Assembly (NCBI RefSeq): GCF_006970445.1
Contig: NZ_CP033877.1
Location: forward strand, 1,682,750-1,746,749
DNA from: Stenotrophomonas maltophilia
GTDB lineage: Bacteria > Pseudomonadota > Gammaproteobacteria > Xanthomonadales > Xanthomonadaceae
Direction of reading: 5' to 3'
Length of the DNA stretch: 64,000 bases
Position numbers and translations under genes: made by a program. The notes below the pieces were generated by a model that saw only the letters and a program-made list of their open reading frames with translations, had not been told where the DNA came from and did no database searches. Of the stretch, positions 15,727-59,326 are shown piece by piece. Position 1 is the first letter of the stretch; each line of letters opens with the position of its first letter.

Positions 15727-15828
15727 GGCGGGGTGGGTCCGGTTGCGGGGGACGCCGTAAATACGTCCATGTAAGCTCGGTCGCCGCATCCATGCGGCTC
15801 ACGCCCCCGCAACCGGACCCACCCCGCC
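15727..15828 (+). repeat. Long T-shaped palindrome, copy A (forward)
   Basis: Arms 15727-15751 and 15804-15828 are a perfect 25 bp inverted repeat. They enclose a 52 nt core (15752-15803) that begins ACGCCGTAAA and contains two small palindromes, TACGTCCATGTA and CCGCATCCATGCGG. The 3' flank reads TTCGACAGATTTCCGCG, similar to the other forward copies. First of an inverted pair with the copy at 16012. Confidence 0.92.
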
Positions 15829-15874
15829 TTCGACAGATTTCCGCGATCTGTCGGAACGGCATGGACCGCTGTTG

Positions 15875-15986
15875 GTAGGTGTCGACCTTGGTCGACACAG
15901 TAGATCCACGCCATGCGTGGATGCTTTTCGATCTCGATTCGAAATATTCGATTCCGATGGAGATTCATCCACGCATGGCGTGGATC
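15875..15986. repeat. GTAG-headed SMAG/REP palindromes between the two long palindromes
   Basis: Three elements: GTAGGTGTCGACCTTGGTCG starting at 15875, GTAGATCCACGCCATGCGTG starting at 15900, and the inverse CATCCACGCATGGCGTGGAT at 15966-15985. These are typical Stenotrophomonas GTAG-headed palindromes with different stems. Confidence 0.8.
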
Positions 15987-16011
15987 CATCAGATCGCGGA
16001 AATCTGTCAGG

Positions 16012-16113
16012 GGTGGGGCGGTATCGGAGTGCGGGGTGTCCGCGGCATGGATGCCGCGGCCAAGCCCCCATGGACGGGTTCACGGCGTCCCCGCGCTCCG
16101 ACACCGCCCCGCC
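16012..16113 (-). repeat. Long T-shaped palindrome, copy A' (reverse)
   Basis: Arms about 16012-16036 and 16089-16113 pair with only a few mismatches or wobbles. The 52 nt core (16037-16088), read on the minus strand, begins ACGCCGTGAA and contains CCCGTCCATGGG and CCGCGGCATCCATGCCGCGG. Arm sequence differs from copy A. The flank on its outer side, read on the minus strand, includes GCAAAAGCTGGCATTCCGTG. Confidence 0.9.
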
Positions 16114-16202
16114 AACCCACGGAATGCCAGCTTTTGCTGTTGCCGTTGCCTTGGCTTGAGGCATCTGCGGGTGCAGGGCGCAGCCCTGCCGAAAAACACG
16201 CA

Positions 16203-16233
16203 TAAAAAAACAGCAGGCCGAGGCCTGCTGTTT
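16203..16233 (-). terminator. Rho-independent terminator of the tRNA-Arg transcript
   Basis: CAGCAGGCC-GAG-GCCTGCTG at 16211-16230 is preceded on the plus strand by seven A, which gives a U run after the stem on the minus strand. It follows the last tRNA-Arg gene in the direction of transcription. Confidence 0.85.
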
Positions 16234-16241
16234 CGGTGTAA

Positions 16242-16318
16242 TGGTGCGCCCGGAGAGATTCGAACTCCCGACCGCCTGGTTCGTAGCCAGGTACTCTATC
16301 CAACTGAGCTACGGGCGC
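16242..16318 (-). tRNA. tRNA-Arg(ACG), third in transcript order
   Basis: 77 nt including an encoded CCA. The acceptor stem is GCGCCCG/CGGGCGC, the anticodon arm CCTGG-CTACGAA-CCAGG gives anticodon ACG (read as ICG after deamination), and the T arm is GGGAG-TTCGAAT-CTCTCC-like. The sequence is identical to the two copies upstream. Confidence 0.97.
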
Positions 16319-16350
16319 CAATTACATAAACTTGTTGTGCTGACTGTGTA

Positions 16351-16427
16351 TGGTGCGCCCGGAGAGATTCGAACTCCCGACCGCCTGGTTCGTAGCCAGG
16401 TACTCTATCCAACTGAGCTACGGGCGC
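16351..16427 (-). tRNA. tRNA-Arg(ACG), second in transcript order
   Basis: 77 nt, same sequence as the flanking copies, with encoded CCA and anticodon ACG. It is separated from its neighbours by 32 and 69 bp of AT-richer spacer, so the three copies form one probable transcription unit. Confidence 0.97.
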
Positions 16428-16496
16428 GCGGTACACAATCAACTTACTGCTTAATTTTACTGCATTTTCAGCGGCGGATGCTGAAAACCTGTCGAG

Positions 16497-16573
16497 TGGT
16501 GCGCCCGGAGAGATTCGAACTCCCGACCGCCTGGTTCGTAGCCAGGTACTCTATCCAACTGAGCTACGGGCGC
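16497..16573 (-). tRNA. tRNA-Arg(ACG), first in transcript order; overlaps a CDS
   Basis: 77 nt identical copy. Its 5' end at 16573 overlaps the 3' end of the hydrolase gene (stop at 16564-16566) on the same strand: the TAG inside GCGCCCGTAG of the acceptor/D-arm junction is the hydrolase stop codon. Transcription of the hydrolase would therefore run into the tRNA cluster. Confidence 0.96.
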
Positions 16574-17490
16574 CCTGCGACAGGAGCGGAATTATGCGGA
16601 TGTCGGCGCGTACCGTCAACAGTTTTGTGAAAATTTTCATCCAACTGAATGAAAAAGCTGTCAGCTACGGCCTCCGGCGCCTTCAGCCACGCGAAATGGT
16701 CGGCGCGCGTGCCCAGTTCCTGCGCGGACAGCACGCGCAGCTGCGCGTCCACATTCGGCAGCTTCGCCAGCAGCGTCTGCATCGATCCGGTCGGTGCCAA
16801 CCAATCATGCTCCATCAGCACGGCCTGTGCGCTGCCATGCACGCGCGCCATCTGCGCATCGAGGTCTTCGTCCATGCCAGCTGCGGCGTAGTGGTTGTTC
16901 AGGCCCACGCGTGCCCAGTCGGCAATCAGTCCGCGCGCTTCGGTGCCACCAAAGCCGAGGCGACGGCCATGCAGCACGCCCTGGCGCTGCGCGATCCACG
17001 GCAGGAAGCGGTAGACCAGTGGCAGCAGCCAGCCACGCGGTGGCGGGAACCCGCGCCAGAACGGTGAGCCACTGGCGGCCAGCCACAGCCGGTTGAAGTA
17101 GTGCGGGTTGCGGCCGGCATGCACGCAGGCCAGCTGCCCACCGAGGCTGTGTCCACCGATGATCCAGGGCAGGGCGCCGGCGTCGTCATCCGCTGCGGCC
17201 AATACCGTTTGGCTGGTTGGCAGATCCTGTTCGAGTACCTCGCGATAGCCCCAGTCCTGCGTGCGCGATGGGCGCAGTGAGCTGCTGCCGTTGCCGCGCC
17301 ACTCGTGCACGTAGACCGCCACGCCCTTCGCCGCCAGCGCCAATGCCAGCGGCAGGTAGTGGCGCGCGGCCACGCCCAGTGCCGGCAGCCACAGCAGGCG
17401 CGCGATGGGCTGTGAGGGCACGCAGGCAATCACCTCGTAGCGATGGCCGTCGTTGCACTGCACCGCATGGAGGGTCGGCGTCAGGCTCAT
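16564..17490 (-). CDS. Alpha/beta hydrolase (serine aminopeptidase S33-like)
   Basis: 308 residues. The start ATG at 17488-17490 overlaps the thiD stop as ATGA; a longer frame to 17622 would lie wholly inside thiD. The protein shows the lid-type hydrolase pattern: LPALGVAARHYLPLALAL, VYVHEWRGNGSS, the nucleophile elbow GGHSLGGQLA and a late histidine in RADHFAW. The last residues PVAGRP and the TAG stop are encoded by the 5' end of tRNA-Arg, so the natural C-terminus may have been altered when the tRNA array formed. The function is unknown; coupling to thiD may be only positional. Confidence 0.87.
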   Translation of the reverse strand: MSLTPTLHAVQCNDGHRYEVIACVPSQPIARLLWLPALGVAARHYLPLALALAAKGVAVYVHEWRGNGSSSLRPSRTQDWGYREVLEQDLPTSQTVLAAADDDAGALPWIIGGHSLGGQLACVHAGRNPHYFNRLWLAASGSPFWRGFPPPRGWLLPLVYRFLPWIAQRQGVLHGRRLGFGGTEARGLIADWARVGLNNHYAAAGMDEDLDAQMARVHGSAQAVLMEHDWLAPTGSMQTLLAKLPNVDAQLRVLSAQELGTRADHFAWLKAPEAVADSFFIQLDENFHKTVDGTRRHPHNSAPVAGRP

Positions 17491-18296
17491 GCGTGTGGTG
17501 CCGCGCCGAAGTGATCGAGCACCAGCACCTCGCTGCGGCCGGGGGCATAGCCCTGCTGCAGGCCGCGTGCAACGTAGTCGATGCCGGCTTCGCAGGCGTT
17601 GGCCAGGCTCAGGCCATTGCACAGCTGCGCGGCGATGGCCGAGGCCAGTGTGCAGCCGGTGCCGTGTGCATCCAGTGGCAGCCGGGCGTGGATGAATTCT
17701 TCGCTGCTGACGCCGTCGAAGTAACGGTCGATCACGCGGCTGCCTTCCTGCAGGTGGCCGCCTTTCAGCAGCACCGCACCGGCACCCAGGTCGAGCAGGG
17801 CGGAGGCCGCCCGTTCGGCGTCATCGCCGTTGCCGATCTTCCGTCCGACCAGCAGCTCCGCTTCCGGCGTGTTCGGGGTGATCAGCGTGGCCAGCGGGAA
17901 CAGCCGCTCACGCATTGCCTGCAGGGCGCTGTCTTCCAGCAGGCGGGCGCCACTGGTGGCGACCATCACCGGATCCAGTACCACGTGCGGCGGGCGATGG
18001 CGCTCCAATGCATCGGCGACGGCATTGATCACCTCGGCGTTGGCCAGCATGCCGAGCTTCACCGCGTGGATGTCGAAGTCGTCGAAGCAGGCATCCAGTT
18101 GTGCCCGCAGGAAATCGATCGGCGGCACATGCACGGCGGCGACGCCACGGGTGTTCTGCGCGGTCAGTGCAGCGATCGCCGAGAGGCCATGCACGCGGTG
18201 CGCGGCGAAGGCCTTCAGGTCGGCCTGGATGCCTGCGCCACCGCCGGAGTCGGAGCCGGCGATGGTGAGGGCGGATACGGGAGTGGTCGGGCTCAT
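17487..18296 (-). CDS. thiD: Hydroxymethylpyrimidine/phosphomethylpyrimidine kinase
   Basis: 269 residues. Phosphorylates HMP and then HMP-P to HMP-PP for thiamine biosynthesis in the cytoplasm. The ribokinase-like fold is evident from AGSDSGGGAGIQADLKAF (substrate binding) near residue 13 and DAHGTGCTLASAIAAQL (anion hole and catalytic Asp) near 216. Length is normal for ThiD. It starts ATG at 18294-18296. No TPP riboswitch is evident upstream; the hairpin at 18350 is a dispersed repeat. It is followed, with a 4 bp overlap, by the S33-like hydrolase. Confidence 0.96.
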   Translation of the reverse strand: MSPTTPVSALTIAGSDSGGGAGIQADLKAFAAHRVHGLSAIAALTAQNTRGVAAVHVPPIDFLRAQLDACFDDFDIHAVKLGMLANAEVINAVADALERHRPPHVVLDPVMVATSGARLLEDSALQAMRERLFPLATLITPNTPEAELLVGRKIGNGDDAERAASALLDLGAGAVLLKGGHLQEGSRVIDRYFDGVSSEEFIHARLPLDAHGTGCTLASAIAAQLCNGLSLANACEAGIDYVARGLQQGYAPGRSEVLVLDHFGAAPHA

Positions 18297-18349
18297 CCAG
18301 CGATTGTGCCGTGGTCGCCGTAAAGGCGGTAGCGTCGCCGCCGGTAGAT

Positions 18350-18390
18350 GGGGTCAGATCCCTTTTCCGCAGGAAAAGGGATCTGACCCC
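18350..18390. repeat. 19 bp hairpin GGGGTCAGATCC family, copy 1
   Basis: Perfect 19 bp arms (18350-18368, 18372-18390) around the loop GCA, beginning GGGGTCAGATCCCTTTTCC. It lies between the thiD start and the convergently placed 3' end of the YoaK-type gene. Related copies are at 37707 and 59148; the latter differs at one stem position with the pairing base changed too. Confidence 0.9.
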
Positions 18391-18403
18391 CATAGCGCGG
18401 TAC

Positions 18404-19072
18404 TCAATGCCGCCAACGCGCCCACTGCTGGTACAGCACATAGCCCAGCCCGGTCAGGCCGGTCAGCAGGGCCGGGGCGAGCAGGGCGTCGTACTGCCAG
18501 CGCATGAACAGCCAGGCGCCGATCATGCCGCCGGCGAGGAAGCCACTGATGATCAGGCCGCTGAGGGTCAGCCGTCGCACCTGCAGCGGCAGTCCGCGCA
18601 GCAGGTGGCCCAGGCCGATGCCGAGATCGGTGAACATGCCGCTGAGGTGGGTGGTGCGCACCACCGCGCCGCTGAAGGTGGTGGCCATTGCATTCTGCAG
18701 GCCGCAGGCCATGGCGGCGGCCAGTGCGCCCCAGATCTGGTGTTGTTCGAACAACGGAATGGCCACCAGCAGCAGTGCCGATTCCAATGCCAGCGCTACG
18801 CCGTAGCGGCGGCCCAGCTGCAGGGTGCTGTCCTGGATCAGCAGGCCGCTGAGCATCGCGCCCAGCGAGAACGCGATCAGCAGTCCCCACAAGTGGCCGA
18901 CCGCGCGCCAGTCACCTTGGGCCAGCGCCATGCCGAGCTGGCTGGTGCTGCCGGTCATATGGCTGACCGCCTGGTGCTCGAAACCAAGGAAGCCAACCAC
19001 GTTGACCATGCCGGCCACGCACGAGAGCGCGACCGCGCCGATCCAGACCCAGGTGGGCAGGCGAATTCCCAT
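18404..19072 (-). CDS. DUF1275/YoaK-family inner-membrane protein
   Basis: 222 residues with about six hydrophobic segments. Family features include VGFLGFEHQAVSHMTGSTSQLG near 26-47, GLQNAMATTFSGAVVRTTHLSGMFTDLG near 124-151 and GGMIGAWLF. DUF1275 proteins are widespread but have no established function; some are suggested to be transporters. It starts 11 bp after the stop of a lipoprotein gene, so it is likely cotranscribed with the lipoprotein and the PIN-PhoH ATPase. Confidence 0.9.
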   Translation of the reverse strand: MGIRLPTWVWIGAVALSCVAGMVNVVGFLGFEHQAVSHMTGSTSQLGMALAQGDWRAVGHLWGLLIAFSLGAMLSGLLIQDSTLQLGRRYGVALALESALLLVAIPLFEQHQIWGALAAAMACGLQNAMATTFSGAVVRTTHLSGMFTDLGIGLGHLLRGLPLQVRRLTLSGLIISGFLAGGMIGAWLFMRWQYDALLAPALLTGLTGLGYVLYQQWARWRH

Positions 19073-19083
19073 CGGCGGGGCCC

Positions 19084-19590
19084 TCAGGGCCCGCCGAGGC
19101 CGCCGTTGAACTGCAGCTCGCTGAAGGTGTTGTTGGCCGGGTCGAACACTGCGCCCCAGAACTGCGCGCCGCCATCGCAGACGCGGATCGCTTCGCGGGC
19201 CGGATTGATGCCGCTGTCGTCGGGCAGGTGGAAGGCGTTGATGTAGATCAACCGTTGGCCAGCGCTTTCGATGCCGACGTACTGGCGGTCAAAGTCCAGC
19301 ACCTTCGGCACCTGGGCCTCCAGCGAAGACAGCTTCGCTTCCAGCTGGTCGACCTGCTGCCGGCTGGGCGCCCAGTAACCACTGACCCGCCCGGCCTCGC
19401 GGCCGGGGCTGGGACGCGAGCAGGTGTCGAGCACCTGCGCGGCGATGATCGGGCGGGTGACTACCCAGGACTGGCCGGTGCGCTCGGTGGTCGGCACGCT
19501 GGCTGGGCCGCGCGTGGTGGTACAGGCACCGAGCACGGCTGCGAGGGCGATCGCAGCCGTGGGCAGCAACAGGCGGGTGCAGCGGTTCAC
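19084..19590 (-). CDS. Putative lipoprotein, unknown function
   Basis: 168 residues. The GTG start at 19588-19590 overlaps the stop of the PhoH-like gene (GTGA). The lipobox LGAC gives Cys23 as the lipidation site. A central heptad-like stretch (QQVDQLEAKLSSLEAQVPKV) is likely helical, and the two remaining cysteines (CSRPSPGRE and RVCDGG) could form a disulfide. I do not recognise a family. The neighbours give no pathway. Confidence 0.85.
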   Translation of the reverse strand: MNRCTRLLLPTAAIALAAVLGACTTTRGPASVPTTERTGQSWVVTRPIIAAQVLDTCSRPSPGREAGRVSGYWAPSRQQVDQLEAKLSSLEAQVPKVLDFDRQYVGIESAGQRLIYINAFHLPDDSGINPAREAIRVCDGGAQFWGAVFDPANNTFSELQFNGGLGGP

Positions 19591-20987
19591 AACACCTCCG
19601 AAGCGTAATCGGCCAGGCGCGAACGCTCGCCACGGCGCAGGGTGATGTGCGCACTATGCGGCCAGTTCTTGAAGCGGTCCACCGCGTAGGTCAGGCCCGA
19701 GGTGGTCTCGGTCAGGTACGGTGTGTCGATCTGCTCGACGTTGCCCAGGCAGACGATCTTGGTGCCGGGACCGGCACGGGTGATCAGCGTTTTCATCTGC
19801 TTCGGGGTGAGGTTCTGCGCCTCGTCCAGGATCAGATAGCGCGACAGGAAGGTGCGGCCGCGCATGAAGTTCATCGAGCGGATCTTGATGCGGCTGGCCA
19901 GCAGGTCGTTGGTGGCCTGGCGGCCCCAGGTGCCGCCTTCCTGGTTGTGCGTGAGCACTTCCAGGTTGTCGGTCAGCGCGCCCATCCACGGCGTCATCTT
20001 CTCTTCCTCGGTGCCTGGCAGGAAACCGATGTCTTCGCCGACGCTGACCGTGGCGCGGGTCATGATGATCTCGCGGTAGCGCTGTTGGTCCATCGTCTGC
20101 GCCAGGCCGGCGGCCAGCGCCAGCAGGGTCTTGCCGGTGCCGGCGGTACCCAGCAGCGTGACGAAGTCGATCTCCGGGTCCATCAGTGCGTTGAGGGCGA
20201 AGTTCTGCTCGCGGTTGCGTGCGCTGATGCCCCATACGGCGTGGCTGCCGTGGCGGAAATCATCGACCAGCGACAGCACCACCTTGCCGTCGCCGACCAC
20301 GCGGCTGACGCGCAGCTCGACTTCATCTTCTCCCGGCAGGTAGACGTACTGGTTCGGGTACCACTCCTCGCCATCCTGCGCCTGGATTTCGTAGTGCGTG
20401 CGGCCCTTGTCGCTCCAGCTGCGCAGGTCGTCGCCGTGGCGCTTCCAGAAGTCTTCCGGCAGCTCGGTGGCGCCGGTGTAGAGCAGGCTGAAATCGTCCA
20501 GCGCGCGGTCGTTCTCGTAGTCCTCGGACACGATGCCGGCGATGGCGGCCTTGATCCGCAGGTTGATGTCCTTGGAAACGAACACCACCGGCAGGTCCGG
20601 GGTTTCTTCCTTCAGGGCCAGGATCGCGCCGAGGATGGCATTGTCCGGAATGACCTTGCCAAAGCTCTTGCCCGCGTCGAAATGACTGGTCTGGAAGCGC
20701 AGCTTGCCGGCGCTCTGCTTGCCGCGCAGCTGCAGGCCATTGGGTCGCTGCAGCGGAATGCCGTCGGCCAGGTTGTCCAGGCCGGATTCCTGCACCAGCT
20801 CGTTGAGGAAGCGGCTCACCTGGCGGGCGTTGCGGCTCGCTTCGGAGGTGCCCTTCTTGCCGTTGTCCAGCTCCTCGATCACCTGCATCGGCAGGTAGAC
20901 GTCGTGCTCCTCGAATTTGAACAGCGCGGTGGGATCGTGCATCAGCACGTTGGTATCCAGCACGTAGATGCGCTTGCCTCGGGTCAT
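19587..20987 (-). CDS. PIN-domain/PhoH-family ATPase (YlaK type)
   Basis: 466 residues. The N-terminal PIN nuclease domain starts YVLDTNVLMHDPTALFKF, with conserved acidic residues in VLDTN and VIEELDNGKK. The C-terminal PhoH P-loop domain has GTAGTGKTLLALAAGL (Walker A) and YLILDEAQNLTP (Walker B). Such PhoH2-like fusions combine an RNA helicase-like motor with an RNase. The start at 20985-20987 has AGGAA upstream; an upstream ATG at 21056 lacks support. It heads a three-gene run with the lipoprotein and the YoaK-type protein. Confidence 0.94.
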   Translation of the reverse strand: MTRGKRIYVLDTNVLMHDPTALFKFEEHDVYLPMQVIEELDNGKKGTSEASRNARQVSRFLNELVQESGLDNLADGIPLQRPNGLQLRGKQSAGKLRFQTSHFDAGKSFGKVIPDNAILGAILALKEETPDLPVVFVSKDINLRIKAAIAGIVSEDYENDRALDDFSLLYTGATELPEDFWKRHGDDLRSWSDKGRTHYEIQAQDGEEWYPNQYVYLPGEDEVELRVSRVVGDGKVVLSLVDDFRHGSHAVWGISARNREQNFALNALMDPEIDFVTLLGTAGTGKTLLALAAGLAQTMDQQRYREIIMTRATVSVGEDIGFLPGTEEEKMTPWMGALTDNLEVLTHNQEGGTWGRQATNDLLASRIKIRSMNFMRGRTFLSRYLILDEAQNLTPKQMKTLITRAGPGTKIVCLGNVEQIDTPYLTETTSGLTYAVDRFKNWPHSAHITLRRGERSRLADYASEVL

Positions 20988-21071
20988 CGTCGATTCCTGG
21001 TTACGGACAGGGAAAAACCACCACGGCCTGCTGCGGGGCAGGGTGGTGGCAGACACAGTAGGCAGTGGGAC

Positions 21072-21551
21072 TCACTTGGACTGGGAGGCCTTCAGTTCGG
21101 CGAGAACGGCATCGGCATGGCCGGCAACCTTGACCTTGCGCCAGGACTGCACGATGCGGCTGTCGGGGGAAATCAGGAAGGTGCTGCGTTCGATGCCACG
21201 TACCTGCTTGCCGTACATGTTCTTCATCTTGATCACATCGAAGGCGCTGCACAGCGCTTCGTCGCCATCGCTGACCAGCGGGAAGTTGAAGCCCTGCTTG
21301 GCACAGAAATTGTCGTGCGACTTCACCGAGTCGCGCGAGACGCCCAGCACGACTGCGCCGGCCTTCTTGAACTTCGGCAGCAGCGCGTTGAAGTCGATGC
21401 CTTCGGTGGTGCAGCCGGGGGTGCTGTCCTTGGGATAGAAGTACAGCACCAGCCAGTGGCCGGCGTAGTCGCCGAGGGTGGTCTGTTCGCCGCCGGACAG
21501 CGCCAGCGGCAGGGAAAGGGTGGTGCTGTCCAGGATATCGCCGTTGTTCAT
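21072..21551 (-). CDS. bcp: Thiol peroxidase, PrxQ/Bcp subfamily
   Basis: 159 residues. Reduces hydroperoxides with the peroxidatic cysteine in YPKDSTPGCTTEG near residue 46. The segment VVLGVSRDSVKSHDNFCAKQGFNFPLVSD follows the normal PrxQ order. In this subfamily a resolving cysteine five residues after the peroxidatic one is often present; here that position is in TTEGID and lacks Cys, so it behaves like an atypical or 1-Cys variant, with the Cys of NFCAKQ further on. ATG 21549-21551 is preceded by AAGGA and gives the normal length. Confidence 0.94.
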   Translation of the reverse strand: MNNGDILDSTTLSLPLALSGGEQTTLGDYAGHWLVLYFYPKDSTPGCTTEGIDFNALLPKFKKAGAVVLGVSRDSVKSHDNFCAKQGFNFPLVSDGDEALCSAFDVIKMKNMYGKQVRGIERSTFLISPDSRIVQSWRKVKVAGHADAVLAELKASQSK

Positions 21552-21630
21552 GAGGTCCTTCTGTCGAGCCTGGGTTCTTTCTACGACAATTGCATGAAAC
21601 GCCACGCGCCCGTGAGAGGCGCGCGAAGAA

Positions 21631-22191
21631 TCAGAATTTCATCGGGTCCATGATCGCGTCCAGGTTCAGGTGGTCGCAGAATTCAAGGAAATCGTCGCGC
21701 AGCGCGGCGATGTGCATGTTGGCCGGCACGCCGATGGTGACCTGTGCACTGAACATTTCCGCGCCGGTCTGCATGGCGCGGTAACGCGTGCTCTGCAGGT
21801 TCTCGATGGTGATGCCCTGGCGATCGAAGAAATCGGCAAGCTGGAACAGGATGCCCGGCTTGTCGGCGGCGATCACTTCAACGATGTACGGCAGCAGGTT
21901 GGACTGCGCCTGCTTGGCGGCGGTGCGGTACCAGACCAGCTTCAGGCCTTCCTCGCGCTCCAGCCGGGTCAGCATCGCCTCGAGCTTGGCCACCGAGTCC
22001 CAGGAGCCGGTGGCCAGGGCGGTGACCGAGACATCGCGGCCGACCGTGGCCAGGCGTGCGTCCACCAGATTGCAGCCGCTGTCGGCGATGCGGCGGGTCA
22101 CGGACAGCAGGGGGGACTCCGGATGCGTCGTATAGGCGTTGATCAGGAGGTGGTTTTCGCTCGGCGCGGGGCGCGGGGTGGTGTCGGTCAA
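21631..22191 (-). CDS. gcvR: Glycine cleavage system regulator-like double-ACT protein
   Basis: 186 residues with two ACT domains (about 10-80 and 95-175). E. coli GcvR binds glycine and modulates GcvA. Recognisable segments are NAYTTHPESPLLSVTRRIADSG, NLVDARLATVGRDVS and VEVIAADKPGILFQLADFFDRQGI. I chose TTG at 22189-22191, giving an LTDTTPRPAP start, since the frame further upstream runs into the divergent dapA leader and lacks family-like sequence. Divergent placement next to dapA matches E. coli, which supports the name. Confidence 0.88.
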   Translation of the reverse strand: MTDTTPRPAPSENHLLINAYTTHPESPLLSVTRRIADSGCNLVDARLATVGRDVSVTALATGSWDSVAKLEAMLTRLEREEGLKLVWYRTAAKQAQSNLLPYIVEVIAADKPGILFQLADFFDRQGITIENLQSTRYRAMQTGAEMFSAQVTIGVPANMHIAALRDDFLEFCDHLNLDAIMDPMKF

Positions 22192-22355
22192 GGCGATTCC
22201 GGGTAATGCATGCGTTAGTCTGAATGCCCGCCAGAGGCGGGGATCCACCGGTGTCCAGCATACTTGCCCGTGCTTTCGCGCCGCAAGTAACATTCAAGTC
22301 GCCCCCGGCCTTTCGTGGCGGGCGTTTTCCCTTCCCAGCCAAGAGCAGCACGTCC

Positions 22356-23249: not shown

Positions 23250-23281
23250 CCTTCCGTCTTGGTCTGACCCAGGAGATTCAC

Positions 23282-23797: not shown

Positions 23798-23808
23798 GGG
23801 GAGGCCAG

Positions 23809-23893: not shown

Positions 23894-23924
23894 GGATCTT
23901 GCGGTTGGCACCTGCCGAGAAGCA

Positions 23925-23951: not shown

Positions 23952-23972
23952 CGTTGCCACTCCAGGCGCTTC

Positions 23973-25963: not shown

Positions 25964-26061
25964 GGGGCAGACCGCCCTCTCCAGGACACGCAGAAGCCCA
26001 TCCATGGTGCTCGATGGCGCCATCCATGGCGCCAACGGTCCTGGAGAGGGCGGTCTGCCCC
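25964..26061 (+). repeat. Long T-shaped palindrome, copy B (forward)
   Basis: Perfect 23 bp arms 25964-25986 and 26039-26061 (GGGGCAGACCGCCCTCTCCA...), core 52 nt at 25987-26038 containing CCATCCATGG and GGCGCCATCCATGGCGCC. The 3' flank ATTCGGACAGTTTCATGG resembles that of the other forward copies. It lies 53 bp after the sugar-porter stop. Confidence 0.92.
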
Positions 26062-26143: not shown

Positions 26144-26243
26144 CGGTGGGGTCACCCAGGGCGGGACCGTTGGCGCCATGGATGGCGCCATCGAGCCCCC
26201 ATGGATGGGTTCACGGCGTGTCCTGCCCTGGGTGACCCCACCG
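26144..26243 (-). repeat. Long T-shaped palindrome, copy B' (reverse)
   Basis: Arms 26144-26166 and 26221-26243 pair over 23 bp with one wobble. The core of 54 nt, read on the minus strand, begins CACGCCGTGAACCCATCCAT and contains GGCGCCATCCATGGCGCC. It is the inverted partner of copy B, 82 bp away. The region 25911-26358 contains no gene, only this pair, a terminator and flanks. Confidence 0.92.
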
Positions 26244-37521: not shown

Positions 37522-37624
37522 GGCCGGGCAGGTTGGGTTCGCGGGGGACGCCGTGAACCCATCCATGGGGGCTTGGTCGCCGCATCCATGCGGCTCACAC
37601 CCCGCAAACCCAACCTGCCCGACC
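37522..37624 (+). repeat. Long T-shaped palindrome, copy C (forward)
   Basis: Arms 37522-37546 and 37600-37624 pair over 25 bp with two mismatches. The 53 nt core includes GACGCCGTGAACCCATCCAT, with CCCATCCATGGG and CCGCATCCATGCGG. The 3' flank is TTGGACAGTTTCCTG. It is downstream of the GacA-type gene and faces copy D across eda. Confidence 0.9.
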
Positions 37625-37706
37625 TTGGACAGTTTCCTGTGGCATCCGCCGCGGAATGAAGAAGAAAGAGCAGGAGCGGGTCGCGCGCTTTGCGCGCTCG
37701 TTGCCC

Positions 37707-38493: not shown

Positions 38494-38601
38494 GCGGCGG
38501 AGGGCAGGCCGTCGCCAGGACCGTTCGCGCCATGGATGGCGCGAATGAGCCTACAGGGACGTATTTACGGCGTGTCCTGGCGACGGCCTGCCCTCCGCCG
38601 C
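38494..38601 (-). repeat. Long T-shaped palindrome, copy D (reverse), between edd and eda
   Basis: Perfect 27 bp arms 38494-38520 and 38575-38601, the longest in the set, enclosing a 54 nt core. On the minus strand the core begins CACGCCGTAAATACGTCCCT and contains CGCGCCATCCATGGCGCG. Transcription from edd to eda would copy it into RNA. Confidence 0.93.
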
Positions 38602-50015: not shown

Positions 50016-50034
50016 TCGGCTCTGGCTGTACCCG

Positions 50035-52027: not shown

Positions 52028-52733
52028 GGTCTTCAACCGCGGCGATGAAGTGATCCGCGCCGAAGCACTGGGCAAGACCTACGCCGAAGGGCGCATGCAG
52101 ACCCCGGTGTTCGATGGCCTCGACCTGACCGTGACCGCCGGCGAAACCGTGGCGATCATCGGTGCCTCCGGTGCCGGCAAGAGCACCTTGCTGCACCTGC
52201 TGGGCGGGTTGGATATTCCGACCGCTGGCGAGGTCTACGTGACCGGCCAGCGCATGTCGGCGCTGTCGGACACCGCGCGTGGCCTGCTGCGCAACCAGGC
52301 GCTGGGCTTCGTCTACCAGTTCCACCACCTGCTGCCTGAATTCACCGCGCTGGAAAACGTGATGATGCCGGTACTGCTGGCCGGCACCGCCGTGGCCGAG
52401 GCGAGCAGCCGGGCCACCGCGCTGCTGGAAGCGGTCGGCCTCGGCCATCGCCTGGACCACAAGCCCGGCGAGCTGTCCGGTGGTGAGCGCCAGCGAGCAG
52501 CCGTGGCGCGTGCGCTGGTCAATCATCCGGCCTGCGTGCTCGGCGACGAGCCGACCGGCAACCTGGATGACCGCACCGCGGGCACCGTGTTCGAGCTGAT
52601 GCTGGAACTCAACCGCGCGCGCCATACCAGCCTGGTGCTGGTCACCCACGACCGCAGCCTGGCGCGGCGCCTGGACCGGGTGCTGGAGCTGCGCGAAGGT
52701 CGCCTTCACGCACTGGCCCACGCCGACGTCTGA
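52020..52733 (+). CDS. lolD: Lipoprotein-releasing system ATP-binding protein
   Basis: 237 residues. Walker [18 protein letters not shown], LolD-specific loop [27 protein letters not shown], signature [17 protein letters not shown] and Walker [13 protein letters not shown]. Starts 8 bp inside lolC. Powers extraction of outer-membrane lipoproteins, of which the window encodes several. Confidence 0.96.
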
Positions 52734-52752
52734 GCGGGTTGGGTCGGCTCTG

Positions 52753-52865
52753 GTAGATGCCGACCTTGGTCGGCTGCTCTTGTAGGGCAAGCGCCAACCA
52801 AGGTTGGCGACTACCGGAATCCGGAGCCTTGGGTCTGCTTTGGTAGAGGTCGACCTTGGTCGACC
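52753..52865. repeat. Three SMAG/REP palindromes after lolD
   Basis: GTAGATGCCGACCTTGGTCG from 52753, the inverse GCCAACCAAGGTTGGCGACT at 52793-52812, and GTAGAGGTCGACCTTGGTCG from 52843. All share the CC/AA-TT loop region but differ in the stem. Confidence 0.85.
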
Positions 52866-52954
52866 GCCGACCGGCGACTGAATGGGCTGCCGGTCGTCGC
52901 GCCGGTGTTGCCGGGCCAGGCGCATGATGGCGACGGTACCCCGAGGAGATCGCC

Positions 52955-53413
52955 ATGAAGACCCCGATCCTGATTGCCGGACTCTGCCTGGCCCTGGCCG
53001 CCTGCGCGACCACCGGCCGGCTCAGCAGTACCGAGAAACTGGATCTGTACCGTGCCCACGCCGGCGCGCCGCAGAACGACATGCAGTTCTTCGGCAGCCT
53101 CAATGGCTGGACCGAACTGGGTGACAGTGCGCTGGCGGTCTGGACCCGACCGAGCGAGGCTTACCTGCTGGAACTGAGTGGCCCGTGCCCGGACCTGTCC
53201 TACGCCACCGCCATCGGGCTGACCAGCAGCATGGGCCGCGTGTCGTCGCGTTTCGACAAGGTGCTGGTGCGCGACCCGACCGGTGGTCCGCGCATGCCGT
53301 GCTTCATCAACAGCATCCGCAAGCTGGACGTGAAGGCACTGCGTGCCTCCGAGCAGGAGCTGCGCCAGGCTCAGGTGCAGGAGCGCGAGGCGGAGACCTC
53401 CCCGGCCAAATGA
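52955..53413 (+). CDS. Putative lipoprotein (DUF6491-like)
   Basis: 152 residues. Lipobox LAAC puts the lipid on Cys17. The central part reads MQFFGSLNGWTELGDSALAVWTRPSEAYLLEL followed by SGPCPDLSYATAIGLTSSMGRVSSRFDKVLV, a pattern I associate with the small xanthomonad lipoprotein family DUF6491; function unknown. The C-terminus is a charged helix (ASEQELRQAQVQEREAE). It ends at the strong hairpin at 53416. Confidence 0.8.
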   Translation: MKTPILIAGLCLALAACATTGRLSSTEKLDLYRAHAGAPQNDMQFFGSLNGWTELGDSALAVWTRPSEAYLLELSGPCPDLSYATAIGLTSSMGRVSSRFDKVLVRDPTGGPRMPCFINSIRKLDVKALRASEQELRQAQVQEREAETSPAK

Positions 53414-53415
53414 TC

Positions 53416-53482
53416 AAAAAGGGGACGGAGGGGATTAAGTCGTTTGTGCCACAAACGACTTAATCCCCTCCGTCCCCTTTTT
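53416..53482. repeat. 30+ bp inverted-repeat hairpin, copy 2
   Basis: Arms about 53416-53448 and 53450-53482 form an almost loopless 33 bp palindrome: AAAAAGGGGACGGAGGGGAT then TAAGTCGTTTGTG and its complement. Arm sequence equals that of 9378-9455. It again sits between convergent gene ends, with T run on each strand. Confidence 0.9.
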
Positions 53483-53487
53483 TGCCG

Positions 53488-53757
53488 TCAGGCTTCCGGA
53501 ACGAAGCCTGCCGGCTTTTCCGCGTCCTTCTCGAACAGGAACTTGACCAGTTCGCCTTCAAGGAACGCGCGATGTTCCGGGGTGCGCGGTGACAGGCGGT
53601 TTTCGTTGATCAGCATGGTCTGGTGCGCCAGCCACGCAGCCCAGGCCTGCTTGCCGATGTTGCTGAAGATGCGCTGGCCCAGTTCGCCGGGGTAGGGCAC
53701 GAAGTCCAGGCCCTCGGCATCGCGTTGTTCATACTGGCAGAAGACGGTTCGGGACAT
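53488..53757 (-). CDS. yggX: Oxidative damage protection / Fe(II) trafficking protein YggX
   Basis: 89 residues. Starts [19 protein letters not shown] with the single conserved Cys7; [25 protein letters not shown] and [17 protein letters not shown] are all family hallmarks. Protects Fe-S proteins from oxidative damage. Follows mutY by 5 bp, the same mutY-yggX arrangement as E. coli. Confidence 0.97.
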
Positions 53758-53762
53758 GGCAC

Positions 53763-54887
53763 TCACTCGTGGTTGCGGGGTTTCTTGGACGTTCGTTTCG
53801 GCGCCTTGATCGTGGCGCCATCGAGCAGTTTGCGGATCGGTGCCGGCAGGCCCAGTGCGGGCAGTTCGTCGGCGGCGACCCAGCGCAGCGTGGGTTCTTC
53901 CACGCGCAGGCCGTGCACCTGCCGCGACAGTACCTGCAGATGCAGCTTGTAGTGGCTGAAGGTGTGCTGCAGCACGGGCAGCTCCTCGGCGTCTTCCAGC
54001 GAACCTTCGACATGCGCGTCGAACCAGTCCTGCAGCACGCTGCCGGCATCGGCCTGCGGCAGCGTCCACAGTTGCGCCCAGATGCCGGTATCCGGCCGCT
54101 TCTGCAGCAGCACGCGCTGCTGGGCATCGCGCAGCAGCAGGGCCACTGCTTCGCGCTCGGGCAGGGTCTTGCTGGGCTTGGGCGTGGGCAGTTCAGCGGT
54201 GCGGCCTTCGCGGCGCGCCACGCACTCGTCCTGCAGCGGGCAGATCACGCAGGCTGGCTTGGCGCGGCTGCACACCGTCGCACCCAGGTCCATCTGTGCC
54301 TGGCTGTAATCGGCCATGCGCCCGGCCGGCACCTGCGCTACGTGCGCCTCGGCGATCGTCCACAACTGTTTCTCGATGGCCGGCAGCCCGGGAAAGCCGT
54401 CGATGCCGTGGTAACGGCTGAGCACGCGCTTGACGTTGCCATCGAGGATCGCGAACGGATCGTTCCAGGCTTGGCTGAGGATCGCACCTGCGGTGCTGCG
54501 GCCGATGCCGGGCAGGGCATGCAGTGCATCGAAATCGCGCGGCAGGTCGCCGTCGTGCAGTTCCACGCAGCGCTTTGCAGCGGCGTGCAGATTGCGTGCG
54601 CGGGCGTAGTAGCCGAGCCCGGCCCACTGCGCCATCACCGCGTCATTGCTGGCGGCGGCGAGGTCGGGCAGGGTCGGGAAATGCTGCAGGAACCGCTGGA
54701 AGTAAGGGATGACCGTGGCCACCTGGGTCTGCTGCAGCATGATTTCCGACAGCCAGACCCGATAGGGGCTGCGTGGGTGCTGCCAGGGCAGGTCGTGGCG
54801 ACCGTGGTCGTCGAACCAGTGCAGCAGGCGGGCGACGAAACCGTTCCGTTCTGCAGTCTCGGCGCTGGCGTGCGGCTGGCGGGGCAT
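53763..54887 (-). CDS. mutY: A/G-specific adenine glycosylase
   Basis: 374 residues. Removes A opposite 8-oxoG. Helix-hairpin-helix [16 protein letters not shown] with the catalytic Asp in [14 protein letters not shown]; the Fe-S cluster ligands Cx6Cx2Cx5C in [17 protein letters not shown]. The C-terminal NUDIX-like domain covers about 230-350. Cotranscribed with yggX. Confidence 0.97.
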
Positions 54888-54915
54888 TGGAGTTCCCGAG
54901 GAGGGCAGCCACCTG

Positions 54916-54938
54916 GTAGAGCCACCCCATGGGTGGCT
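54916..54938. repeat. Single SMAG/REP palindrome between mutY and ftsY
   Basis: GTAGAGCCACCCCATGGGTG, continuing GCT, is the only repeat in the 80 bp between ftsY stop and mutY start. Confidence 0.8.
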
Positions 54939-54967
54939 GCACCAGATTGCGGTGGCTGCGCGGTGTA

Positions 54968-56284
54968 TCAGGCGCCCAGCGCTTCGGGCAACAGGGCGTC
55001 GACGAAGGCTTCCGGGTCGAACACGCGCAGGTCTTCCGGGCGCTCGCCGATGCCGGCGAAGCGGATCGGAATGCCGAACTCGCGCGCCAGCGCGAACACC
55101 ACGCCGCCCTTGGCGGTGCCATCCAGCTTGGTCACCACCAGGCCGGTCACGTTCACCGCGGCATTGAACTGGCGCAGCTGCGACAGCGCGTTCTGGCCGG
55201 TGGTGCCGTCGATCACCATCAGCACTTCGTGCGGTGCGGTGGGGTCGATCTTGCCGAGCACACGGCGGATCTTGCCCAGCTCGTTCATCAGGCCGGACTG
55301 GGTGTGCAGGCGGCCGGCGGTATCGGCGATCAGCACCGAGGTGCCACGGGCCTTGCCGGCCTGCAGCGCGTCGAACGCCACCGAAGCGGCATCGGCGTTC
55401 TGCCCCTGCGCGACCACGGCCACGCCGTTGCGCTCGCCCCAGGCCTGCAGCTGGGCCACGGCGGCGGCACGGAAGGTATCGCCGGCAGCCAGCATCAGGC
55501 TGTGGCCGTCATCCTTGAAGCGCTTGGCCAGCTTGCCGATGGTGGTGGTCTTGCCGACGCCGTTGACGCCGACGGTCAGTACCACGAAGGGCTTGGCAGT
55601 GCGGTCGATCACCAGCGGCTTGGCCACCGGCTGCAGGATCGCGATCAGCTCGGCGCGCAGTGCGGCCAGCAGTGCATTGGCGTCGGCGAACTCGCGCGAC
55701 TTCATGCGCTTGCGCAGGCCCTCGACCAGATCGGTGGTGGCACCCACGCCGACGTCGGCGGTGATCAGTGCGGTTTCCAGCTCGTCCAGCAGGTCGTCGT
55801 CGAGCTTGGGGTTGCGCGAGAACAGGCCACCGAAGCTGCGCGCGATGACGCTGTTGCGCAGGCGTTCGCGCCAGCCGGGCTTGCCGGCAGGCGCCGGAAC
55901 GGCATCAACCGAGGCGGCGGCAGGCAGGTCGTCGGTGACCGGTGCCGGGGTGGGCTCGGGCAGCGGTGCGGGTGCCGGTTCGATTGCCGGGGCCGCAACG
56001 GGGGCGACGTCAATCTGCGCCGTCGGCGCTGGAGCTGCCGGAACCGGCGCGGCTGGAGCCGGAATCACCGGCGTGGGCTCGACAGCGACTGGAGCGACCG
56101 CTGCCGGGGGCGGCTCGACCGGGGCAGGCACGGCCGGCGCGGCTACCGGCGCAGGTTCCTTGTCCTCGACCGGTGCGGTCGACGGGAACGCCGCCGCCAG
56201 CTCTTCAGCCGAGTAGTGCTGGGTCTTGGGTGCCTCCACTGCGGGGGCATCCTGGGGCTTCTTGCGGCGGAAAAAACTGAGCAT
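54968..56284 (-). CDS. ftsY: Signal recognition particle receptor FtsY
   Basis: 438 residues. Long Ala/Pro/Glu-rich N-terminal A domain (about 20-125) and the NG domain: helical N part, then GVNGVGKTTTIGKLAKRF, DTAGRLHTQSGL and VTKLDGTAKGGVVF. Docks ribosome-SRP complexes at the inner membrane. ATG 56282-56284 (MLSFFRRKK) chosen over a TTG two codons earlier. ftsX/E do not follow; rsmD, its usual neighbour, is 3 kb away across htpG. Confidence 0.96.
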   Translation of the reverse strand: MLSFFRRKKPQDAPAVEAPKTQHYSAEELAAAFPSTAPVEDKEPAPVAAPAVPAPVEPPPAAVAPVAVEPTPVIPAPAAPVPAAPAPTAQIDVAPVAAPAIEPAPAPLPEPTPAPVTDDLPAAASVDAVPAPAGKPGWRERLRNSVIARSFGGLFSRNPKLDDDLLDELETALITADVGVGATTDLVEGLRKRMKSREFADANALLAALRAELIAILQPVAKPLVIDRTAKPFVVLTVGVNGVGKTTTIGKLAKRFKDDGHSLMLAAGDTFRAAAVAQLQAWGERNGVAVVAQGQNADAASVAFDALQAGKARGTSVLIADTAGRLHTQSGLMNELGKIRRVLGKIDPTAPHEVLMVIDGTTGQNALSQLRQFNAAVNVTGLVVTKLDGTAKGGVVFALAREFGIPIRFAGIGERPEDLRVFDPEAFVDALLPEALGA

Positions 56285-56413
56285 TGGCAAAAGGCGCTGA
56301 AATCAGAGGGATATGCTACCACTCGGGCCTGTCGGGCCGATGTGGACTCAAGGTCGCGGCCAGCCGGCCGTTAACCGGTCCGGAGGGCTGCGCAGTGCGG
56401 CCCGGAGACCGCC

Positions 56414-56713
56414 ATGAACAACGTGATGGGAATCGCCCTCAGCGGGATGCGTGCGGCCCAGCAGGGCGTGCAGGTGGCCGCGCACAACATGGCCAATCTG
56501 GCGACCCCCGATGCCCGGCGCCTGCAGGTACAGCGCGGTGCCGCTGAGCAGGGTGGGGTGCAGGCCTCGGTGATTCCCACCGGCGCCGATGCCGGCGCGC
56601 CGCTGGGTGATCTGCTGGCGGCGAAAGCCGAGGTGGTGGCGTTCGCCGCCAATGCCACGGTGATCCGGCGCCAGGACCAGATGCTGGGTTCGCTGCTGGA
56701 TCGCGAGGTTTGA
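56414..56713 (+). CDS. Small protein with flagellar rod/hook N-terminal motif, orphan
   Basis: 99 residues. GGAGACCGCC precedes the ATG. The N-terminal 35 residues resemble the flagellar basal-body rod domain (ALSGMRAAQQGVQVAAHNMANLATPDARR is the pattern of FlgB/FlgC/FlgG, where NNxAN.xTPG is conserved). The end LGSLLDREV resembles the C-terminal coiled-coil of rod proteins (VIRRQDQMLGSLLD). No flagellar gene is nearby. It may be a minimal rod-like protein or a degenerate copy. Confidence 0.75.
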   Translation: MNNVMGIALSGMRAAQQGVQVAAHNMANLATPDARRLQVQRGAAEQGGVQASVIPTGADAGAPLGDLLAAKAEVVAFAANATVIRRQDQMLGSLLDREV

Positions 56714-56726
56714 TCAGCCCGCCTCG

Positions 56727-56879
56727 GTAGGCGCCAACCGCCGCCCCTGGTGGGTGCCAACCTTGGTTGGCATGCTCGACGCCCTGGTAGGTGCCAACCT
56801 TGGTTGGCACGCTTTTGGGGCGCCAACCAAGGTTGGCCTCTACCAGGGCAGTAGTGCCAACCAAGGTGGGCACCTACCA
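56727..56879. repeat. Cluster of five SMAG/REP palindromes with GCCAACC stems
   Basis: Copies begin near 56727 (partial), 56750, 56787, 56821 (inverse) and 56851 (inverse), each built around GCCAACCTTGGTTGGC or its complement. This is the densest REP array in the window, between the rod-like gene and htpG. Confidence 0.85.
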
Positions 56880-56917
56880 GAGCGTCGCCGGGCCATGCCC
56901 GGCGACCACCTTGCCGA

Positions 56918-58807
56918 TCAGGCCGACAGTTCCAGCAGCAGCTTGTTCAGGCGCGCCACATAGGCGCCTGGGTCCTTCAGGCTGTCACCGGCGGCCAGCG
57001 CGGCCTGGTCGAACAGCACCCGGCCCAGATCGTCGAAACGCGCGCCATCGGCTTCGGCATCGAGCTTGGCGATCAGCGGATGGCCCGGATTGATTTCCAG
57101 AACCGGCTTGCTGTCAGGTACCTTCTGCCCGCTGGCTTCCAGGATCTGGCGCATCTGCAGGCCCAGGTCCTGTTCGCCGATGGCCAGCACCGCCGGCGAA
57201 TCGGTCAGGCGATGCGAGACACGCACTTCGGCCACGTCATCGCCCAGCACCGTCTTCAGGCGCTCGACCAGGCCCTGCTTGTCCTTCGCCGCCGCTTCCT
57301 GCTCCTGCTTGTCGGCCTCGCTTTCCAGCGCGCCCAGGTCGAGGTCGCCGCGGGCGATGTCGACGAAGCCCTTGCCGTCGAAATCGGTCAGGTAGCCCAT
57401 CAGCCACTCGTCGATGCGGTCGGTCAGCAGCAGCACTTCCACGCCCTTCTTGCGGAACACTTCCAGGTGCGGGCTGTTGCGTACCTGACTGTAGCTCTCG
57501 CCGGTCAGGTAGTAGATCTTGTCCTGGCCCTCGGTCATGCGGCCGAGGTAATCGGCCAGCGACACGCTCTGTGCATCGCCGTCGCCACGGGTGGAAGCGA
57601 AGCGCAGCAGGCCGGCCACCTTCTCGCGGTTGTTGTAGTCCTCGGCCGGGCCTTCCTTCAGCACCTGGCCGAATTCCTTCCAGAACGCGGCGTACTGCTC
57701 CGGCTTGTCGGCGGCCAGCTTGTCCAGCATGTCCAGCGAGCGCTTGGTCAGCGCCGCCTTCATCGAATCGATGACCGGGCCGGACTGCAGGATCTCGCGG
57801 GAGACATTCAGCGACAGGTCGTTGGAATCGACCACGCCCTTGATGAAACGCAGGTACAGCGGCAGGAACTGCTCGGCCTGGTCCATCACGAATACGCGCT
57901 GCACGTACAGCTTCAGGCCCTTGGGCGCATCGCGGTGGTACAGGTCGAACGGCGCGCGGCCCGGCACGTACAGCAGCGAGGTGTACTCCAGCTTGCCTTC
58001 GACCTTGTTGTGGCTCCACGCCAGCGGATCGCTGTGGTCGTGCGCCACGTGCTTGTAGAACTCGGTGTACTCGGCGTCGCTGATCTCGGTGCGCGGGCGG
58101 GTCCACAGCGCGCTGGCACGGTTGACGGTCTCCCACTCGCCGGCGGCGCCTTCTTCGCCTTCCTTCGGCATCTGGATCGGCAGGCCGATGTGGTCCGAAT
58201 ACTTCTTGAGGATGCTGCGCAGGCGCCAGCCATCGGCGAAGTCATGCTCGCCGTCCTTCAGGTGCAGCACGATGCGGGTACCGCGCTCGGCCTTGTCGAC
58301 GGTGGCGACGTCGAAGTCACCTTCGCCGCGCGAGGTCCAGCGCACGCCTTCGGCCGCGGCCAGGCCGGCGCGGCGCGAGGTCACTTCCACTTCATCGGCG
58401 ACGATGAAGGCGCTGTAGAAGCCGACGCCGAACTGGCCGATCAGCTGCGAATCCTTCTTCTGGTCGCCGGACAGCTGGCGCAGGAAATCGCCGGTGCCGG
58501 ACTTTGCGATCGTGCCGAGGTGGGCAATCGCTTCGGCGCGGCTCATGCCGATACCGTTGTCTTCGATGGTGATGGTGTGGGCGGTGGGGTCGAAGCTGAC
58601 GCGCACGCGCAGTTCGCTGTCGCCTTCCAGCAGGGCCGGCTGGGTCAGGGCCTCGAAGCGCAGCTTGTCGGCGGCATCGGCGGCATTGGAGACCAGCTCG
58701 CGCAGGAAGATTTCCTTGTTGGAGTACAGCGAGTGGATCATCAGCTGCAGCAGCTGCTTGACTTCGGTCTGGAAGCCAAGGGTTTCGGTCTGGGTGGTCT
58801 CGGTCAT
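56918..58807 (-). CDS. htpG: Chaperone protein HtpG (Hsp90)
   Basis: 629 residues. GHKL ATPase N-terminus: [67 protein letters not shown]. The middle domain and C-terminal dimerisation domain follow normally. ATG 58805-58807 has GGAG before it; the open frame upstream to 59062 belongs to a repeat and was rejected. No sigma-32-like promoter is clear to me. Confidence 0.97.
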
Positions 58808-58930
58808 CGATAAGGCTCCATGTGCAATGCCGCGCCAGCGCGTGCGGCCTCGCCAAGGGGTATGGCTGATTGTCCCGAAATCAAGGGGTTGGTCGGGCAG
58901 GGCTGCGCCCTGCACCCGCTGAGTGCAACT

Positions 58931-58954
58931 GCCAGAGCCAGAGCCAGAGCCAGA
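58931..58954. repeat. Hexanucleotide tandem repeat (GCCAGA)x4
   Basis: Four perfect GCCAGA units in the 5' flank of palindrome E. Outside any gene. The region 58808-59456 (649 bp) has no gene; it consists of this repeat, palindromes E and F, one SMAG element and a hairpin. Confidence 0.85.
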
Positions 58955-58973
58955 GCGGCATTCCGTGGGATGC

Positions 58974-59071
58974 CGGGGCACTGTGGGTTCGCGGGGACGG
59001 CGCAAGTACGTCCATGTAGCCTTGGTCGCCGCATCCATGCGGCTCACACCCCGCGAACCCACAGTGCCCCG
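58974..59071 (+). repeat. Long T-shaped palindrome, copy E (forward)
   Basis: Perfect 23 bp arms 58974-58996 and 59049-59071 around a 52 nt core that contains TACGTCCATGTA and CCGCATCCATGCGG. The 3' flank is TCTGACAGGTTCACGCGG, as in the other forward copies. Confidence 0.92.
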
Positions 59072-59097
59072 CCTCTGACAGGTTCACGCGGCTGTTG

Positions 59098-59120
59098 GTA
59101 GGCGTCGACCTTGGTCGACA
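59098..59120. repeat. SMAG/REP palindrome between palindromes E and F
   Basis: GTAGGCGTCGACCTTGGTCG then ACA; nearly the same element as at 15875, which also sits between the two members of a long-palindrome pair. Confidence 0.8.
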
Positions 59121-59147
59121 CATCTGTCAGATATCGATACATCAAAT

Positions 59148-59188
59148 GGGGTCAGATCCGTTTTCCGCAGGAAAACGGATCTGACCCC
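59148..59188. repeat. 19 bp hairpin GGGGTCAGATCC family, copy 3
   Basis: Perfect arms 59148-59166 and 59170-59188, loop GCA. Compared with copy 1, one stem base changed C to G and its partner G to C, so pairing was preserved. Confidence 0.9.
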
Positions 59189-59224
59189 AAGGGACGTTCC
59201 GACAGGTCGCAGGAAACTGTCGAA

Positions 59225-59326
59225 GGCGGGGTGGGTCCGGTTGAGGGGGTGTGAGCGCCATGGATGGCGCGACCAAGCCCCCATGGATGGGTTTACGGCG
59301 TCCCCCTCAACCGGACCCACCCCGCC
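59225..59326 (-). repeat. Long T-shaped palindrome, copy F (reverse)
   Basis: Perfect 25 bp arms 59225-59249 and 59302-59326, core 52 nt. On the minus strand the core starts ACGCCGTAAACCCATCCATG and contains CGCGCCATCCATGGCGC. The arm equals that of copy A except for one base, compensated in the other arm. The outer flank on the minus strand includes GGCTATCCGTGGGTTGGC. Confidence 0.93.

Follow-up and report, generated by a model that had tools for sequence, protein, structure and literature searches.

The stretch of Stenotrophomonas maltophilia DNA analyzed here (contig NZ_CP033877.1, positions 1,682,750 to 1,746,749; hereafter the window, meaning all 64,000 nt) carries eight copies of an intergenic palindromic repeat, which we designate the T element. 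Two copies accompany the genes edd and eda, and the others occur as inverted pairs. The T elements constitute a real family of dispersed, structured repeats that resemble repetitive extragenic palindromic (REP) sequences and are spread over the class Gammaproteobacteria. All eight copies were present where the original prediction had placed them, exactly or within a few bases; the copy put at 16012 starts at approximately 16015 by arm pairing. A stricter pattern scan of the window found seven of the eight, missing the copy at 38494. The described arms of 22-27 bp were complementary, fully or nearly so, but they did not differ almost completely between copies: arms fell into types that recurred, and one almost identical arm was common to the elements at 15727 and 59225. 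The core, put at 52-54 nt, measured 50-53 nt in the window copies; of 225 copies examined, 204 had a core of 52 nt. Strands of elements are given here for the strand bearing GGA in the hairpin loops (the GGA strand), which is opposite to the orientation in which the elements were first described (the TCC strand).

The T element, approximately 100 nt overall, folds as a three-way junction: its outer stem is long and varies in sequence, and the other two branches are hairpins, the first of them bulged. Specifically, the bulged hairpin has 3 basal bp, a 5-nt bulge (mostly GTAAA, GTGAA or GCAAG) and 3 apical bp, and the stem of hairpin 2 has 5-8 bp. In an alignment of 30 copies from the source genome, standard pairs made up 94.6% of 870 pair cells, and 20 of the 29 pairs had changes on both sides (204 cells). 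The covariation score was reached by none of 500 shuffles and the number of doubly changed pairs by one of 500; a measure of further pair types was not above the shuffles (303 of 500 as high). Sliding the partner register by 1-3 columns reduced pairing to 36-46%. Based on the shuffles and the slid registers, chance is excluded as the source of the paired structure. Single-sequence folding of the window copies recovered the long outer stem, with junction details that differed among predictions. The alignment and the folding thus bear out the predicted T shape with covarying stems, and the two small palindromes within the core, which are the hairpins, varied in a paired way as claimed. Compensated variation of this kind points to selection on structure; the near-perfect arms may be kept in part by DNA template switching.

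The loops, which read C-N-TCC-(N)-T-G on the TCC strand, become CA-(N)-GGA-N-G, closed by a C-G pair, when reverse-complemented. This pattern occurred in both hairpins of 122 of 148 copies in the source genome (those without it include damaged copies), 55 of 55 copies in genome G065, all 22 family loci, 17 of the 22 class loci, 11 of the 12 phylum loci and 29 of the 30 copies from family f171; L364 was counted in both the phylum and f171 sets, three loci (two from the class, one from the family) were excluded because of their length, and L345, one of the five class exceptions, was shortened by slicing. At the two N positions of the loops, all four bases occur. Variants lacking one N, CAGGATG or CAGGACG, correspond to the CsrB-type motif (L292, L307, L199 and L362), and on the GGA strand TACAAGGATGT is the sequence of hairpin 1 in the distant copies L356, L359, L360 and L363. 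Within the window, 8 of 8 C-ANGGAN-G hairpins with a 5-bp stem fell inside T elements; outside them the mean per loop class was 0.43. The two loops were 22-23 nt apart in all eight window copies, a distance that may suit the binding of two GGA loops by one CsrA dimer. The CsrA consensus from systematic evolution of ligands by exponential enrichment, as given in a review (PMC7652899), is RUACARGGAUGU, presented in a hexaloop with AC/GU pairing; the review gives ANGGAN for RsmE. We estimate that six specified letters would match by chance on either strand about once in 2000, before allowing for the number of recognizable motifs. Judged from these letters, the meaningful strand is probably the GGA strand, opposite to that of the original prediction, with CsrA-type loops.

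Table 1. T elements of the window. Strand is that of the GGA-bearing strand; spacing is the distance between the two loops.
Element	Position	Strand	Location	Structure	Loops	Spacing (nt)
e1	15727..15828	-	left member, inverted pair 1	25-bp perfect arms, core, both hairpins	CATGGATG + CATGGACG	23
e2	16015..16110	+	right member, inverted pair 1	22-bp arms	CATGGATG + CATGGACG	23
e3	25964..26061	-	left member, inverted pair 2	24-bp perfect arms	CATGGATG twice	22
e4	26145..26242	+	right member, inverted pair 2	arms and core	CATGGATG twice	23
e5	37522..37625	-	3' of eda	22-bp arms	CATGGATG twice	23
e6	38494..38600	+	between edd and eda		hairpin 1: CAGGGACG (free N position, G)	
e7	58974..59071	-	left member, inverted pair 4	23-bp perfect arms	CATGGATG + CATGGACG	23
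e8	59225..59326	+	right member, inverted pair 4	25-bp perfect arms	CATGGATG twice	23

The arms of the elements are asymmetric in their mismatches. Unique mismatches, isolated between pairs, were counted in re-registered, de-duplicated and well-paired copies from six sets. On the TCC strand, there were 72 A.C and 16 G.T mismatches (p 1e-9), equivalent to 72 G.U and 16 A.C on the GGA strand. When the source genome was omitted, the counts were 39 A.C and 7 G.T. The direction was the same in all six sets, and a seventh (29 of 30 copies) gave 12 A.C and 1 G.T. An earlier count with a fixed arm register, made in 122 of the 148 source-genome copies (26 GT, 62 AC and 111 other), is superseded by these values. 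The favored mismatches are those that keep G on the GGA strand, the milder ones. By this asymmetry, it is the fold of the GGA strand that is maintained, whether as RNA or as single-stranded DNA.

The source genome has a single csrA gene. In the class, a CsrA match was found in 61 of 66 genomes with T elements and 252 of 303 without (one-sided p 0.04); among genomes with a completeness of 90% or above and contamination no higher than 5%, the corresponding values were 55 of 56 and 225 of 258 (one-sided p 0.008), the lists having been matched by eye and the statistics ignoring relatedness. No gathering-level match to the CsrB covariance model, RF00018, was found in the window. A distribution complementary to that of CsrB was considered and set aside: none of the 369 class genomes had an RF00018 score over the cut-off, and the model is too narrow to judge sponges generally. 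Part of PMC7694677 reports that Xanthomonas genomes lack homologues of CsrB/RsmB, CsrC and RsmV-Z, and describes RsmU as another RsmA-binding small RNA (sRNA). In Pseudomonas putida KT2440, RNA immunoprecipitation sequencing with RsmA, RsmE and RsmI yielded, according to sections of PMC7937890, a number of intergenic sequences to which each of the three proteins bound; these lie beside ISPpu8 copies or at possible insertion sites of ISPpu8, and the table lists a 'long palindromic region'. That palindrome, likened to the T element by description only, is a suggestive, independent hint. Besides this pull-down, no link between CsrA and REP-like repeats was apparent from the listings of the open-licence papers searched.

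At least 148 matches to the covariance model, at E 0.01 or better, were found in the source genome (150 candidates scored), the weakest being damaged or doubtful copies. They formed 98 clusters: 50 contained two copies, and the remainder were single, 24 in each direction. The two-copy clusters had the order +- in 50 of 50 cases, with a spacing of 180-363 bases. None of the 98 clusters overlapped a gene called by a home-made caller by more than 30 bases. Convergent genes bordered 34 of them, tandem genes 54 and divergent genes 10; for comparison, the window has 26 gaps of 100 bases or more, and 10 of these were divergent. The pairs occurred in all three contexts (18 convergent, 26 tandem and 6 divergent), so their geometry is not set by gene direction. 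The outer flanks were more alike within pairs than between them (p 0.0002). No such excess was seen for the inner flanks (p 0.46), and a four-way junction formed from the inner flanks was rejected. Kissing between the loops of pair members was likewise discarded, as 42 of the 50 pairs could be used and 9 of these had identical hairpin-1 loops, with 9.0 expected; so was a signal at gene 3' ends, the orientation to genes being random. The flank profile of the 148 copies showed GGCGGGG and AG.TTTCC-like conservation and no GTAG tag at a fixed place. By eye, the printed class copies shared no common flank.

Several other repeats accompany the T elements. Palindromes in several pair middles and flanks matched, by eye, the REP sequences of RAYTs tabulated by Nunvar et al. 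(in the portion of PMC2817692 consulted), which are a separate family; such REPs were present at 15850-15990 and 59110-59190 of the window and in several other pair middles. Pair middles also held a near-perfect palindrome, GGGGTCAGATCCGTTTTCC...GGAAAACGGATCTGACCCC. Outside the pairs there were short hexamer-like arrays (CAACGGCAACAGC, CCAAAGCCAAAGC), for example at 15690-15710 of the window and in L013. At G000:C1:4354508-4355707 (L157), a called gene of 257 aa lay between a weak + copy and a - copy approximately 1.1 kb apart, as eda does in the window. In a Xanthomonas-type genome, L047 (1047-1873) contained three tandem +- units with a period of 293 bases. Within the T hairpins themselves, two kinds of palindromic insert, of approximately 65-90 bases, were seen, as if the loops were insertion targets. 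The hairpin-2 insert, present in five copies (L070, L074, L161, L162 and L189; L161 and L162 represent the same site from two strains), contained extra hairpins with the GGA loops AGGAC, AGGACA or AGGATC; the four that were folded, all but L162, each had two added GGA-loop hairpins. The hairpin-1 insert (L076, L087, L093 and L152) added no A-GGA hexaloop in L076, the one folded.

The site of the copy between edd and eda was also filled at the orthologous position in other Stenotrophomonas. In all, 30 of 80 eda loci had a T element there, including three damaged ones (L161, L186 and L189), and L182 had a further one interrupted by a contig end. The site was read by eye in 27 further eda loci: in five (L174, L175, L176, L178 and L196), the 5' arm and the 3' flank were kept and the core and other arm were gone; L195 had a rearranged remnant; and the other 21 had no trace. 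As homologues with uncompensated stem changes would speak against a conserved structure, the arms were compared at this site. They changed yet remained mostly complementary: L164 and L165 differed by one double change, L192 and L173 by several, and the arms of L187 and L184 were wholly different. Uncompensated changes were also present, in L169, L170 and L172. The core and loops were mostly kept. In other families, the arms of the printed copies were unrelated in sequence yet paired. One locus with a Stenotrophomonas-like edd-eda region and a T element, L228 (JAHREJ010000009.1), is titled Bacillus subtilis; the assembly is probably mislabelled or contaminated.

At family level, 36 of 149 genomes had matches to the T element, and at order level 55 of 200; for the class, the count was 66 of 369 genomes, or 58 of 271 genera. 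In the phylum sample, 19 of 299 genomes had them, and all 19 belonged to the same class or nearer. G029, from the same genus as the source, had none. The family is thus old or has spread between lineages, and its distribution is patchy. In G064, a Xanthomonas-type genome, the strand alternated in 28 of 29 multi-copy clusters, the other being -- (among 94 listed of 115 matches), and spacings were often 131-133 and 158-161; in G065, nearly all copies were single (56 listed of 62 matches). In family f171, three genomes had T-like elements (41, 43 and 9 matches) with weaker scores and cores of approximately 57-61 nt. Fourteen Y1_Tnp loci, taken from 8 genomes, were all free of T elements within approximately 1.5 kb, and G029, which lacks T elements, carries two Y1_Tnp genes; these data do not support a RAYT-driven REP. 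One window copy and one L357 copy had no match in phages, and one exact core pattern had none in viral contigs. A single T-like element was found on a plasmid, Marinobacter adhaerens pHP-187 (L322, 3983-4065), the only plasmid record returned by searches with three copies.

Our modest preference is for a reading in which T RNA of the GGA strand would bind CsrA and the scattered repeats would form a REP-like family of RNA sites for the CsrA dimer. On the GGA strand, the element would be a compact site for one CsrA/RsmA dimer, in which the long, sequence-free outer stem would hold two C-ANGGAN-G hexaloop hairpins at a fixed distance. Such elements would propagate and be maintained between genes in the manner of REP/BIME repeats, frequently as inverted pairs, and any transcript running across a pair would include one GGA copy, whichever its direction. 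Transcribed copies could then bind CsrA and jointly act as a distributed sponge or buffer, with local effects on host transcripts. We infer transcription, CsrA binding and a sponge effect at different strengths: the full proposal, of a genome-wide repeat that spreads like a transposable element and, through its summed transcription, both reports on CsrA and buffers it, is offered tentatively and is doubtful.

A number of observations weigh against this reading. The arms are nearly pure Watson-Crick, with G.U in 3 of 420 arm cells on the TCC strand; minimum free energy folds of single GGA strands are sometimes without the hexaloops; and very stable stems are possibly unfavorable for CsrA, according to a passage of PMC7652899. 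Loop conservation is perhaps somewhat overstated, the covariance model having been built from copies chosen by a TCC pattern, and hairpin 2 has lost its GGA in L341, L343, L348 and L194. Transversion mismatches show the same bias as the transitions (25 TC/CT and 9 GA/AG; 10 CC and 0 GG), the TC/GA contrast being 9 and 7 without the source genome. With transversions biased likewise, mutational asymmetry or single-stranded DNA is a possible source of the mismatch bias (control palindromes were not run). CsrA is common regardless of T elements, as the 252 matches in T-free genomes indicate, and G029 has CsrA and no T element; conversely, 5 of the 66 T genomes lack a CsrA match (G327, G387, G418 and G659, each less than 90% complete, and G513, 98%). 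A sponge would require transcription of the GGA strand through read-through, antisense or putative promoters of the elements' own, and at the edd-eda site it is the TCC strand that is in sense. Finally, single copies in tandem contexts showed no strand preference, with 45 TCC-sense and 50 GGA-sense (n=95; TCC/GGA 14/14 in the single-copy clusters of the source genome, 13/24 in G065, 6/4 in the family and 12/8 in class plus phylum), so a cis-acting role in mRNA is unlikely as a general rule.

The most serious rival holds that the T element is, or was, a mobile repeat read on one strand as folded single-stranded DNA by an unidentified transposase, in the manner of RAYT and REP; the GGA loops would be recognition tips and their likeness to CsrA sites an accident. 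We regard this as unlikely. It would account for the uniform +- order of the 50 two-copy clusters and the alternation in G064, the random orientation to genes, the scarcity of divergent contexts relative to the window gaps and the patchy distribution in the family, and single-strand transposition would be expected to produce the one-strand asymmetry. Against it stand the missing GTAG-type tag, the Y1_Tnp loci free of T elements together with the Y1_Tnp genes of T-free G029, and the persistence of the element at one orthologous site between edd and eda. It also leaves unexplained why the conserved letters are those of the CsrA consensus in both hairpins.

Two further explanations dispense with the loops or with selection. 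The element could act by structure alone, as a terminator, an RNase III site or a stabilizer of mRNA 3' ends. Its very stable stems, the many copies between convergent genes and an edd-eda position resembling operon junctions protected by REP sequences fit that description, but the printed copies have no T-run 3' of the outer stem (by eye; no terminator scanner was run), the loops and their closing C-G pairs are highly conserved, and orientation shows no preference; we consider a purely structural role quite improbable. Very little weight is given to neutral palindromes, whose arms would be kept complementary by template switching (quasipalindrome correction) with no selection. The strictness of Watson-Crick pairing in the arms agrees with such a process, and the 5'-arm-only remnants at the edd-eda site suggest, by eye, slippage there. 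Core letters are nevertheless conserved across families of the class, and 30 of 80 eda loci keep a copy although loss is easy. Given the conservation of core and loops, template switching is not the whole story; it may act alongside selection.

CsrA is a global regulator, and a repeat of more than 100 copies, mostly with two consensus loops, would, if it bound CsrA, offer a new means of holding or titrating the protein. It could account for the palindromic intergenic RNA that Rsm proteins bind in P. putida, assign a definite RNA function to REP-like elements and provide a CsrA sponge in many Gammaproteobacteria where none was known.

Known systems share some of these features. No published name for the repeat was found in the open-licence papers searched, in line with the original prediction. 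In Rfam, nothing in the window exceeded the gathering score except four tRNAs, and weak matches at eight element-bearing loci were mostly to microRNA, sRNA or Yersinia models, apparently noise from long hairpins. Like the sRNAs that sequester CsrA or RsmA (CsrB, RsmX/Y/Z and RsmU of Xanthomonas), the T element presents GGA in hairpin loops spaced for possible binding by a dimer; those sRNAs are encoded by one or a few genes, whereas T elements are dispersed in as many as 148 or more copies, have a long variable outer stem and match no Rfam model. The attC sites of integrons are also palindromes that vary in sequence while keeping their structure and fold in a strand-specific way; in T elements, the variable part is outside and the conserved core inside, the reverse of attC. 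In P. putida KT2440, the palindrome reported at an ISPpu8 site (PMC7937890), to which RsmA, RsmE and RsmI bind in vivo, is likewise long and intergenic and might be a T element. A further parallel is with the REP, BIME and REPIN sequences associated with RAYTs, including SMAG (Smal4): both are extragenic and palindromic, number tens to hundreds of copies, and form inverted doublets and alternating arrays. The distinction from SMAG/REP palindromes drawn in the original prediction nevertheless stands. T elements show no GTAG tag and did not flank the Y1_Tnp loci tested (0 of 14), and they have a core common to many families; they are three-way junctions of approximately 100 nt, whereas a REP is a hairpin of 20-40 nt.

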